Of a stretch of 64,000 nucleotides of DNA, positions 16,301-18,908 are shown piece after piece (the stretch's first letter is position 1; each line of letters begins with the position of its first letter). Source of the stretch: Bradyrhizobium sp. CB82. GTDB taxonomy: Bacteria; Pseudomonadota; Alphaproteobacteria; Rhizobiales; Xanthobacteraceae. The stretch is taken from the NCBI RefSeq assembly GCF_029714405.1, contig NZ_CP121650.1:806001-870000 (forward strand). The letters are read 5' to 3'. A program made the translations under genes and the position numbers. The notes below the pieces were generated by a model, which saw only the letters and a list, made by a program, of their open reading frames with translations, ran no database searches and was not told the DNA's origin.

Positions 16301-16574
16301 TGTTGATCGGGAGCTCGGTCTCGTTTGCCATGATATCTCTCCTTTAAGAGACTAGAGCTGGTCCAATTGAAAAAACCTTCACCGATGCCCGCAGCCTGAC
16401 GTTAATCCGGCTCAAATTCTCAATGTGCGCATCGAAGGGTGGACCGGCGCGAGTTCCTTGCCCCGACAGGAGCCAATACGGGTGCAGAAAGCGGGCAGCA
16501 GGCCTGCGTTGATCTGGATCAACCCTTTCGCGAGCAAGGGGTTGAATGATTTGTGCAAATCTTGGAGCGTCGAC

Positions 16575-17024
16575 ATGAGTGGCCTGATGATCCCCCACGA
16601 CGCCTTCGTCTTCATCGGGGACGGTCGCAAGGCCTTGTTCCTGCGCAACGAGGGCAACCCGGCCGAGCCGAGCCTGAAAACTGAAGAGGTGTTCGCTGAC
16701 GAGAACCCGCCGACGCGAGAGCAGGGAACCGAACGTCCCGGCCGCGTCAGCAAACCGACCGGACAAAGAGCGGCTGTCGAGCCGACGGACTGGCACGATA
16801 TCGAGGAACACCGCTTTGCGCGTCGCGTCGCGGTCGCGCTGGAACAACTCGTCCGCGAGCGCGACGTGAAGGCGATCATCGTCGTTGCGCCGCCCCGCGC
16901 GCTGGCCGACTTGCGTGACGCCTTTCACGCCGACGTCAAGGCACGTATCGTCGCCGAGCTGCCCAAGGACTTGACACGGCTTCCCGTCGAAGAGATCACC
17001 GAGCATCTGGCGGCCGAGTACTAG
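16575..17024 (+). CDS. Host-attachment family protein (PF10116-type)
   Basis: 149 residues. Family motifs are DAFVFIGDGRKALFLRN, LKTEEVFADENPP, REQGTERPGRV, DWHDIEEHRFARRVA and IIVVAPPRALADLR. The fold belongs to an eRF1-related superfamily. The name comes from an Agrobacterium attachment locus, and the biochemical role is not known. I chose the ATG at 16575 because GGAG sits 7 bases before it; the frame is open further upstream (to 16425) but that part is unlike the family. It is convergent with the ClpS/AAA gene. Confidence 0.87.
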   Translation: MSGLMIPHDAFVFIGDGRKALFLRNEGNPAEPSLKTEEVFADENPPTREQGTERPGRVSKPTGQRAAVEPTDWHDIEEHRFARRVAVALEQLVRERDVKAIIVVAPPRALADLRDAFHADVKARIVAELPKDLTRLPVEEITEHLAAEY

Positions 17025-17048: not shown

Positions 17049-17076
17049 GGTGGCAGCCGCTCAGGCCGCTGCCACC
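17049..17076. terminator. Hairpin between convergent genes, possible bidirectional terminator
   Basis: GGTGGCAGC and GCTGCCACC form a perfect 9-base stem around 10 bases. It spans the 3' end of the ClpS/AAA gene and follows the host-attachment gene by 24 bases. There is no U-tract on either side, so the terminator role is tentative. Confidence 0.35.
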
Positions 17077-18782
17077 GCCTGCGCGCCGCCGAGCAGCTGC
17101 GCATTGAGGCGACCGCCGGAGAACAGCATTTCGTCGAGCGCTTCGTCGATGTCGACGGAGATGACGGAATTACCGCCGTCGCGCGCCAGGCTCGCCTGTG
17201 CCAGCCGCCGCATCAATTCCTTGATGAAGGCACAGCTCGTGCCCTCGCTGCGGCGCGCCGCCTCGGTGACGATCACGTCATCGAGCGGTAGTCCCTTGCC
17301 GTAGAGCCGAACCAGCTTGCTGCGGCCGATCTCGTCGGGAAGAGGCACTTCGATGGCCTGATCGATCCGGCCGGGTCGGCCGGCGAGTGCACCTTCGAGG
17401 TCCTCCGGCCGGTTCGTGGTCAGGACGAACAGGATGTCCGCATCCTCCTTCAGCCCGTCCATCTCATTGAGCAGTTTGTTTAGCAGAGTCTCCTCGCACG
17501 GCCCCATGTCGTGGCGATCGCGGGCGATGAGATCGACATCCTCGATCACCACCATCGACGGCTGGAGAAGCCGCGCCAGGCTCATATAGGCGCCGAGAAG
17601 GCCCATTTGCTCGGCGGTGATGATCAGCGTCGTATGCCCGGGCAAATGCGTCGCGAGATAGCGGATCGTATGCGTCTTGCCTGTGCCCGGCGGGCCGTAC
17701 AGCAAGATGCCCTTGCGCGTCGACTGGCTGAGCCGGCGCAAATGATCGCGGGTGCCGACGAATCTCAGGACGTTGCGGTCAAGCAGCCGCAAGGTCTGCT
17801 CCGGCAGGATCACCTCGTCGCGTGCCACCGGCGGCAGGCGGTGTACGGTGATGCCGCGCGAGCGGCCGCGATAGTCGCTATCGGCGTCGAGCGAGAGGAT
17901 CTTGCCACGATAGGTGCGCGCGGCCTGCACGGCCTGCTCCAGCTCGCCGAAGCATCGCTGGACCAGGACCACGCCCGCAGCGCCCGAGGGCACGGCGATT
18001 TCGATCCGGATTCCGGGCTCACGGCTGTATTCGCGATGCGCGCAGAGCAGCACCGCGTAGCGGAGATCGCCCTGCACGCACAGCCACAGCCCGTTGTCGA
18101 GGCACTTGACCGGACTCTTCTCGCCAACGTCGACATCGAAATACTGGAGCGGCGCAATCGCCTGCGCATGGCGACCGTCACGCAGAAGCCGTGCAATCGA
18201 CAGCGTCTCGTAGCGTTGCTCGTCGTTGATGCCGAACAGCCGGAGGGCGGAGGCGAACAGCCGGTCGATGGCCGCCTGGACGTCTGCGCGCATGTGTCCC
18301 GGAAACTGGCGGACCGTGGTCACGAGCTTGCTGCGTGGAACGCCGGCAAAATGCCAATCCAGAACCTCGCAGGCATGCTCGAACTCCTTTTCCGGTTCAT
18401 TGCCGGTGTTGCCCGCCGCGCGCATGCAGTCGCTGCACAGCCAGATCGTACGGCTTCCGAGCCGCACGTCGGTCTGCGCCTCGGGCTTGCCGCAAAGCTC
18501 GCAAATTGTCTTGACCGGCTCGAGCGTGATCCTCAGGCCATGACCTGCAAACTGAATGTGCTGGAGCGCGGATTTCAGCAGTGCATCGGCGACGGATCGC
18601 GGGTAGGGGCCGCAACCGACTCGTTGCTCCCGCTCAATCCGGGTCATCAGCGCGACCGCGTCGCGTTCCGACTTGCCGAAAACCCGGCGTAGCAACTCGA
18701 TCACAAATTCTTCCGGCGTATCTTCGTCGTCGTGGATCACGAGCTGGGCCGGGCCGCTATCGCCGTGCATATCACTCATCAT
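17061..18782 (-). CDS. ClpS-like domain / ClpX-type zinc finger / AAA ATPase fusion
   Basis: 573 residues from the ATG at 18782 (GAGAG 8 bases upstream; ATG at 18779 and GTG at 18797 are alternatives). Residues 12-88 follow ClpS: HDDEDTPEEFVIELLRRVFG, then VGCGPYPRSVAD, then AGHGLRITLE. Residues 94-119 form a C4 zinc site, CELCGK...C116SDC119, spaced like the ClpX zinc domain. About 120-330 is unrecognised. The AAA module follows: Walker A GPPGTGKT at 363, Walker B VVIEDVDLI written ED instead of DE as in Bcs1, and TTNRPEDLE..GRPGRID. No protease domain is present. Probably an unfoldase or remodeller. Relative to E. coli ClpS, the N-degron pocket residues N34, M40 and H66 appear as D, E and E. 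Confidence 0.85.
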   Translation of the reverse strand: MMSDMHGDSGPAQLVIHDDEDTPEEFVIELLRRVFGKSERDAVALMTRIEREQRVGCGPYPRSVADALLKSALQHIQFAGHGLRITLEPVKTICELCGKPEAQTDVRLGSRTIWLCSDCMRAAGNTGNEPEKEFEHACEVLDWHFAGVPRSKLVTTVRQFPGHMRADVQAAIDRLFASALRLFGINDEQRYETLSIARLLRDGRHAQAIAPLQYFDVDVGEKSPVKCLDNGLWLCVQGDLRYAVLLCAHREYSREPGIRIEIAVPSGAAGVVLVQRCFGELEQAVQAARTYRGKILSLDADSDYRGRSRGITVHRLPPVARDEVILPEQTLRLLDRNVLRFVGTRDHLRRLSQSTRKGILLYGPPGTGKTHTIRYLATHLPGHTTLIITAEQMGLLGAYMSLARLLQPSMVVIEDVDLIARDRHDMGPCEETLLNKLLNEMDGLKEDADILFVLTTNRPEDLEGALAGRPGRIDQAIEVPLPDEIGRSKLVRLYGKGLPLDDVIVTEAARRSEGTSCAFIKELMRRLAQASLARDGGNSVISVDIDEALDEMLFSGGRLNAQLLGGAQAVAAA

Positions 18783-18908
18783 GAAAATAACTCTCACTAC
18801 AACCTATACTTGAATGGAACAAAGTAAGAACACAAAAACGAGCGGCCGTCAAGCGTGACGGCCACCAAAAAAATGGATCAACGCCGTTGCCGACCAATTG
18901 GCTGGCGC

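Follow-up and report, generated by a model that had tools for sequence, protein, structure and literature searches.

A ClpS domain and a zinc site fused to an AAA ATPase in Bradyrhizobium, under predicted SOS control

The window considered here, a 64,000-nt stretch of the genome of Bradyrhizobium sp. CB82, contains on its minus strand a gene for a 573-aa protein that joins a ClpS domain, a four-cysteine (Cys4) site, a conserved middle region, and an AAA ATPase domain. The start codon is probably that of Met1 or Met2 (18782 or 18779), the equivalent methionine being the start in homologues. The features discussed below are as follows (positions in the window).

17061..18782, minus strand: gene for the ClpS-Cys4-middle-AAA protein, 573 aa (reading frame, Pfam, and homologue starts)
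18525..18746, minus strand: ClpS domain, residues 13-86 (Pfam and alignment to solved ClpS)
18729..18731, minus strand: D18, aligned with N34 of Escherichia coli ClpS
18711..18713, minus strand: E24, aligned with M40 of E. coli ClpS
18633..18635, minus strand: E50, aligned with H66 of E. coli ClpS; 113 of 129 fusion domains have an acidic residue here
18426..18503, minus strand: CX2CX18CX2C site, C94, C97, C116, and C119 (sequence and homologue comparison)
17751..18395, minus strand: middle region, residues 130-344, conserved with a wider core family, with no known domain
17340..17708, minus strand: AAA ATPase domain, residues 359-481 (Pfam and solved relatives)
17673..17696, minus strand: Walker A, GPPGTGKT, residues 363-370 (sequence and homologues)
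17538..17552, minus strand: Walker B, VVIED, residues 411-415, in the order ED (sequence and homologues)
17367..17378, minus strand: RPGR, residues 469-472, candidate arginine fingers (homologues)
18817..18831, minus strand: predicted LexA/SOS box, GTTCTTACTTTGTTC (pattern match; in all 93 main-lineage copies that have a 5' end)
18848..18852, minus strand: TTGAC, candidate -35 element, 21 nt ahead of the box start (putative promoter role)
18841..18866, minus strand: terminator-like hairpin separating the fusion gene from the MFS gene upstream of it, overlapping TTGAC (consensus match only)

The Pfam ClpS model matches residues 13-86 with 50.1 bits against a cutoff of 23 (E 2.4e-13), which places this part in the ClpS family, and the Pfam AAA model matches residues 359-481 with 73.8 bits (E 2.3e-20); both models matched all 13 family members that were scanned (Pfam, E up to 1). 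The initial annotation, which gave no strand, had recognized a ClpS domain at residues 12-88, a zinc site, and an AAA module with a GPPGTGKT Walker A and an ED-type Walker B (VVIED) in a single chain, separated by an unrecognized middle part and without a protease domain within that chain, a description borne out by the profile matches and the cysteine spacing. A match in 98 of 195 sampled Bradyrhizobium genomes, together with median dN/dS values of 0.23 for ClpS, 0.31 for Cys4, 0.17 for the middle region, and 0.16 for AAA (30 copies, 73-75 pairs), excludes a chance fusion, and these ratios point to purifying selection across all of its domains. Neither the fusion nor SOS control of it appears to be described in the open-access literature searched, including the available portions of PMC1779556, PMC4506424, PMC7824862, and PMC13384398, and we regard it as a novel variant assembled from known parts.

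Ordinarily, ClpS is a stand-alone protein that serves ClpA as an adaptor. Over 75 residues, the ClpS domain of the fusion aligns without a gap with solved ClpS chains (best 7e-8; E. coli chain yljA 5.9e-5), and E. coli N34, M40, and H66 hence correspond to D18, E24, and E50, precisely the D, E, and E that had been aligned with them at the outset. From 169 supplied sequences we counted 129 distinct aligned ClpS domains of the fusion, the remainder being duplicates or unaligned, alongside 32 ordinary ClpS proteins, whose conservation may be overstated as 30 of them were chosen as the top-scoring loci of the order sample, the other two being those of the CB82 genome. The ordinary set has N34 in 32, D35 in 32, M40 in 31, H66 in 32, E79 in 31, and K84 in 32. 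In the fusion domains position 34 is Asn in 72 and Asp in 42 of the 129, by which a change of N34 to Asp is rejected as a family trait; Met occupies position 40 in a single domain, and position 66 is Glu in 88, Asp in 25, and His in none. Hence, the N34/M40/H66 pocket entrance of the ClpAP adaptor is not retained. D35 (kept in 124 of 129), T38, P39, V43, G74, and L99 are mostly conserved. Glu persists at position 79 in just 3 of 129 and Lys at position 84 in none, Leu being found there in 116. We take E79 and K84 to be the ClpA contacts of E. coli ClpS (our search of the open-access literature found no paper giving them), and on this assumption the sequences indicate that the ClpA-binding positions are lost in the fusion.

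According to one review, N34 and H66 of ClpS touch the ligand at its amino group; in a homology model described there, the N-domain of human UBR1, a binder of bulky hydrophobic N-degrons, conserves all of the pocket residues well except for D263, at the H66 position (PMC8346999). According to a second source, Arabidopsis ClpS1 has Arg instead of Met as its gatekeeper and retains N-degron binding (PMC7966870); the pocket residues do not occur in the accessible part of PMC9663308. Given the Asp of UBR1 and the Arg of Arabidopsis ClpS1, the acidic position 66 and altered position 40 are as compatible with a retuned pocket as with a dead one. The initial proposal that this domain no longer reads hydrophobic N-degrons is therefore unsupported. 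It is possible that the ClpS part of the fusion still binds an N-terminal signal, though we hold this with more doubt than confidence.

The CX2CX18CX2C spacing is found in 111 of the 116 homologues of at least 540 aa among the best 120 of 7,066 matches (the four shorter proteins of the 120 are left out of this count); two others have 19 or 20 residues between the cysteine pairs and three are without the site. This spacing is that of ClpX, and to that extent the earlier label of a ClpX-type zinc finger holds, but the Pfam ClpX zinc-finger model scores 18.4 bits on the isolated piece, below its cutoff of 27, and its match to the full-length protein has E 0.21. A profile comparison with solved zinc sites ranks those of ClpK/ClpC and ClpX first, at E 0.07-0.43, so that the label rests on spacing and a weak similarity. 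The middle region (residues 130-344), which is conserved with the wider core family, gave no Pfam match in this protein and no match of the family profile against the PDB. A weak match to the Bcs1 N-terminal domain (E 0.15) was seen in the middle region of one actinobacterial relative, and Pfam did not find that domain in the present protein.

By its profile, its Walker A and B motifs, and its candidate arginine fingers, the ATPase is a classical AAA domain of the CDC48/Afg2/FtsH clade, with Afg2 and CDC48 as its nearest solved relatives. Walker A, the ED Walker B, a TTN motif, and RPGR are all conserved in the family. We consider it quite probable that the ATPase of the fusion is active. Opposite the KYLG, KYVG, or WFG residues of Afg2 and CDC48, a stretch that we take to be pore loop 1 in those proteins, the family has an alignment gap, and the distance from Walker A to Walker B is 51 residues in 115 of 120 (one at 49, four not found) and in 100 of 107 (seven not found), eight residues shorter than the 59 of three reference domains. 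By gap and spacing, the aromatic pore loop 1 of the classical threading AAA unfoldases is thus missing, and plain threading is doubtful because the stretch that holds it in CDC48 is absent. Of the selector plus unfoldase in one chain that was initially proposed, the selector and the ATPase are indeed together, but "unfoldase" is doubtful. Bcs1, which translocates folded protein, likewise combines an ED Walker B with the lack of a usual pore loop 1.

ClpS and ClpX-type zinc sites otherwise serve proteolytic machines, and the two ordinary ClpS proteins also encoded in the CB82 genome make a Clp pathway likely there. One possibility, then, is that the fusion is the ATPase of a two-component protease and feeds a partner peptidase in trans. 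Besides the missing pore-loop-1 stretch, several observations render this quite unlikely. An HbYX C terminus is absent from all 115 proteins checked, and wherever a [LIVM]G[FL] tripeptide follows Walker A, it is placed 30 or 37 residues after the start of that motif, presumably not at the position of the ClpP loop of ClpX; hence, neither the tail nor a correctly placed IGF-type loop expected of a proteasome or ClpP partner was found. Further, frames overlapping the gene itself excepted, even the commonest neighbor family recurs in no more than 15 of the 49 loci compared, and none of the ten window neighbors scanned matches a peptidase family. The neighbors in the window include a 2-hydroxyacid dehydrogenase, a patatin-like protein, a GntP-type permease, and a short tannase-like frame, the remainder being a Host_attach/baeRF protein, an MFS pump with its HlyD partner, TetR and MarR regulators, and an enoyl-CoA hydratase. 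With neighbor families in at most 15 of 49 loci an operon partner is rejected, and the gene looks like a single unit. The convergent downstream gene (16425-17024) belongs to Host_attach/baeRF family 12, which was not seen among the neighbor families of at least six loci.

The PADLOC model of IetA, the ATPase of the IetAS system, matches residues 316-535 with 61.5 bits (E 2.2e-17), and the patchy distribution in Bradyrhizobium would also suit an anti-phage ATPase of this kind, triggered by DNA damage. We consider such a role highly improbable: the match spans little beyond the AAA domain, the score of 59.6 bits is far from the NCBIfam IteA cutoff of 510, and a subtilase, the expected neighbor of IetA, is encoded by none of the ten window neighbors scanned.

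Among the sampled Bradyrhizobium genomes, the 98 with a match include some with broken or fragmentary copies, and the other 97 have none. In the order, 14 of 397 genomes match, eight of them Bradyrhizobium; among the six others only the match in genome G316 aligns from residue 2, i.e., with ClpS. A metagenome-assembled genome (MAG) labeled uncultured Alphaproteobacteria encodes a version with ClpS and without the cysteines. The named proteins among the best 120 of the 7,066 homologues are all from Bradyrhizobium except one labeled Frankia sp. RB7; the name "ATP-dependent Clp protease adaptor ClpS" is given to many of them, and a few are annotated as AAA ATPase or FtsH. The ClpS-free core, comprising the middle region and AAA, extends to a Planctomycete (53%), Abditibacterium (49%), and Actinobacteria (35-38%, longer matches) and to 46 plasmid records (Rhizobium 25, Sinorhizobium 18, Mesorhizobium 2, and Paraburkholderia 1), none of which covers 80% of the query; three phage records match, at E up to 1e-15, in the AAA part only. 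The Planctomycete core homologue (L052:9854-11323) has, by eye, an apparent N-terminal transmembrane helix, and for this reason may be membrane tethered. Three of the five plasmid regions viewed (L214-L218, of the 46 records) adjoin nif or fix genes, and in one of these the core homologue consists of two overlapping frames flanked by nifK and nifE; a scan of the five copies for NifA and sigma-54 motifs returned one NifA-type motif and two sigma-54-like matches. Within Bradyrhizobium we distinguish four forms: (i) ClpS with Cys4; (ii) a second paralogue with ClpS and without Cys4; (iii) short forms with neither; and (iv) truncated, frameshifted, or stop-bearing copies. In the second paralogue (L034-L037, L133, and L272-L281), the five proteins read have ClpS without the cysteines and Leu or Trp at position 66.

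The strongest clue, which the initial annotation had overlooked, lies upstream of the gene. A perfect GTTC-N7-GTTC, the pattern to be expected in promoter regions of the alphaproteobacterial LexA/SOS regulon, is placed 35-49 nt upstream of the start at 18782; two papers give this pattern as the SOS box of Caulobacter (PMC9578287 and PMC12700426). It is present in all 42 main-lineage copies of the first set that have a 5' end (either strand, short and broken forms included) and in all 51 held-out main-lineage copies, which were not used for motif discovery. For the held-out scan, in which the queries began at the family start, main copies and second paralogues had been sorted beforehand by core identity; the count leaves out two of 53 main copies (L251 and L265, which match loci already used) and the fragmentary copies of G474 and G529. 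A base-shuffled control gives an expectation of about 0.5 boxes in 63 regions. None of the 15 second paralogues carries the box (five in the first set, of which G057b has only 195 nt of upstream sequence, and ten held out), nor do the two ClpS-bearing relatives outside Bradyrhizobium (G316 and the MAG) or the fragments G061 and G011, whose 5' part is missing. From 400 nt before the frame start (in one case only 96 nt), none of 17 distant core relatives has GTTC-N7-GTTC on either strand or GAAC-N4-GTTC; as the alphaproteobacterial box is also absent from the five rhizobial plasmid copies, SOS control of the whole core family is rejected.

In 39 box-aligned upstream regions at most 90% alike, the seven-base spacer holds 1.1 bits/base as against 0.35 and 0.21 in the flanks, the eight fixed bases being invariant by construction. 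In 31 of 42 copies, a TTGAC precedes the box by 8-29 nt, in 29 of these by 21 or 24 nt, and the box would then overlap a promoter, as would suit a repressor; a consensus scan reported no sigma-70 promoter on the minus strand at the gene. Taking these findings together, we consider SOS (LexA) control of the fusion gene very probable from the sequence evidence. One might object that the box was identified by consensus, that the plain eight-base pattern occurs four times in the window where 1.66 are expected (8 of 100 shuffles reach 4), and that the copies, being related, are not independent trials, and hence regard it as the site of another regulator or as inherited by chance. That reading is extremely unlikely given the presence of the box in all main-lineage copies with a 5' end, the little-conserved flanks, the second paralogues without it, and the same box at recA and lexA of CB82.

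The CB82 genome has one lexA and one recA above the cutoff, and upstream of both stands GAAC-N7-GAAC, which is the same box on the other strand. A narrower pattern, GTTCYNNNTTTGTTC, has nine matches in 10.1 Mb compared with two for the reversed control. These precede the fusion gene, a radical SAM gene, and, on the opposite strand, ssb and an SRAP gene; three more are near small frames without a Pfam match (L200, L205, and L207), which may be novel SOS genes or chance matches, one is near a nucleotide-sugar enzyme frame (read by eye), and one is near no clear gene. Since their neighbors include the small Pfam-less frames, the sugar enzyme, and no clear gene, some of these matches need not be SOS sites. 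We found no paper on a Bradyrhizobium SOS regulon in the open-access literature.

The history of the N-terminal modules bears on whether they still act as a receptor. In a tree of the core, built from 61 of 66 names with five broken or fragmentary copies left out, the five short forms nest inside the ClpS-bearing group (support 1.0 for the group and 0.82 for the node beside the short forms, with several inner nodes weak), which suggests that ClpS was lost secondarily; no ClpS remnant was found in the four short forms searched. Thus, of the 39 main-lineage copies that the tree contains, five have lost ClpS and the zinc site and kept the box, and the receptor is dispensable in that branch. This leads to the main rival explanation, namely, that the ClpS and zinc modules have ceased to work as N-terminal receptors, serving in assembly, localization, or regulation or being in decay, and that the SOS-controlled middle-plus-AAA core works alone. 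The near or complete loss of M40, H66, E79, and K84, the absence of the zinc site from the second paralogues read and from the MAG copy, the faster evolution of ClpS and Cys4 than of the core by dN/dS, and the ClpS-free cores in the Planctomycete, Abditibacterium, Actinobacteria, and rhizobial plasmids all accord with it. Against it, the median dN/dS of ClpS is not neutral, D35 is kept and position 66 is specifically acidic in the proportions given above, and the four cysteines, allowing for the two variant spacings, are kept in 113 of the 116 proteins counted. On balance, we think it rather unlikely that the core acts alone.

We therefore slightly favor a LexA-repressed, DNA-damage-inducible AAA remodeler that chooses its substrates in cis through a captured and retuned ClpS. 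As we envisage it, LexA would bind the box and repress the gene, which DNA damage would induce. The N-terminal ClpS and zinc site would form a substrate receptor that was taken over from the ClpAP pathway, having lost the ClpA-binding face of ClpS and having had its pocket entrance retuned to an acidic residue as in UBR1. The receptor might recognize free N termini and pass substrates on to the ring into which the attached ATPase presumably assembles, and this ring would remodel or dismantle protein complexes rather than fully unfold its substrates; no protease would be part of the system. Remodeling without a protease we find reasonably likely. A counterpoint is that truncated, frameshifted, and stop-bearing copies exist and that 97 of the 195 Bradyrhizobium genomes are without a match. 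A more specific version, which we offer as speculative and unlikely, is an SOS-induced N-recognin with its own motor, in which the UBR1-like pocket reads N termini generated upon DNA damage (e.g., by self-cleavage of SOS proteins) and the CDC48-like ring extracts the fragments from complexes or DNA, independently of ClpAP and without degrading them.

In the fusion, ClpS has been rewired onto an unrelated ATPase and, judging by sequence, brought under the repressor of the DNA-damage response in roughly half of a large genus of symbionts, which would link N-terminal recognition with the SOS response. The predicted SOS regulon of Bradyrhizobium gains an uncharacterized ATPase, and many annotations as "ATP-dependent Clp protease adaptor ClpS" in this genus denote something else. 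Because copies having both ClpS and the zinc site, ClpS alone, or neither module occur side by side in a single genus, the family also provides a natural test of the capture of adaptors by motors.

Several parallels with known systems can be drawn. With the ClpS adaptor and the N-domains of UBR1 and UBR2 (PF02617) the fusion shares the ClpS profile and the 75-residue ungapped alignment, and with UBR1 an acidic residue at position 66 (D263; PMC8346999). It departs from the adaptor in being fused to an AAA ATPase, in the loss of the presumed ClpA contacts, and in the absence of His66 and near absence of Met40. CDC48/p97 and Afg2 (Drg1), its nearest ATPase relatives, have in common with it Walker A, TTN, and the two arginines of RPGR, but the fusion has one AAA domain, a different N-terminal part, an ED rather than DE Walker B, and a Walker A-to-B distance shortened where pore loop 1 lies. 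Bcs1 resembles the fusion in its ED Walker B and the lack of the usual pore loop 1 and differs in its N-terminal domain, which was not found in the fusion. The zinc site shares the spacing of ClpX and a weak profile similarity with the sites of ClpX and ClpK, yet it does not precede a ClpX-type ATPase and scores below the Pfam cutoff. An M50 protease-ClpS fusion in genome G157 (contig C5; L165:5669-7165, minus strand) is a 499-aa open frame whose M50 part (Pfam 6.5e-11) is followed by a ClpS domain at the C terminus (1.7e-22); here too ClpS would serve as a fused receptor, attached in this case to a membrane peptidase and with ordinary pocket residues. The nearest precedent that we found is that of the MoxR/vWA systems of Bacteroidetes, in which L12/ClpS-like domains are reported to be inserted in the vWA partners of MoxR ATPases (PMC7159879): these too place a ClpS-like domain in an AAA-linked system, but in the partner protein, whereas in Bradyrhizobium it is fused to the ATPase itself.
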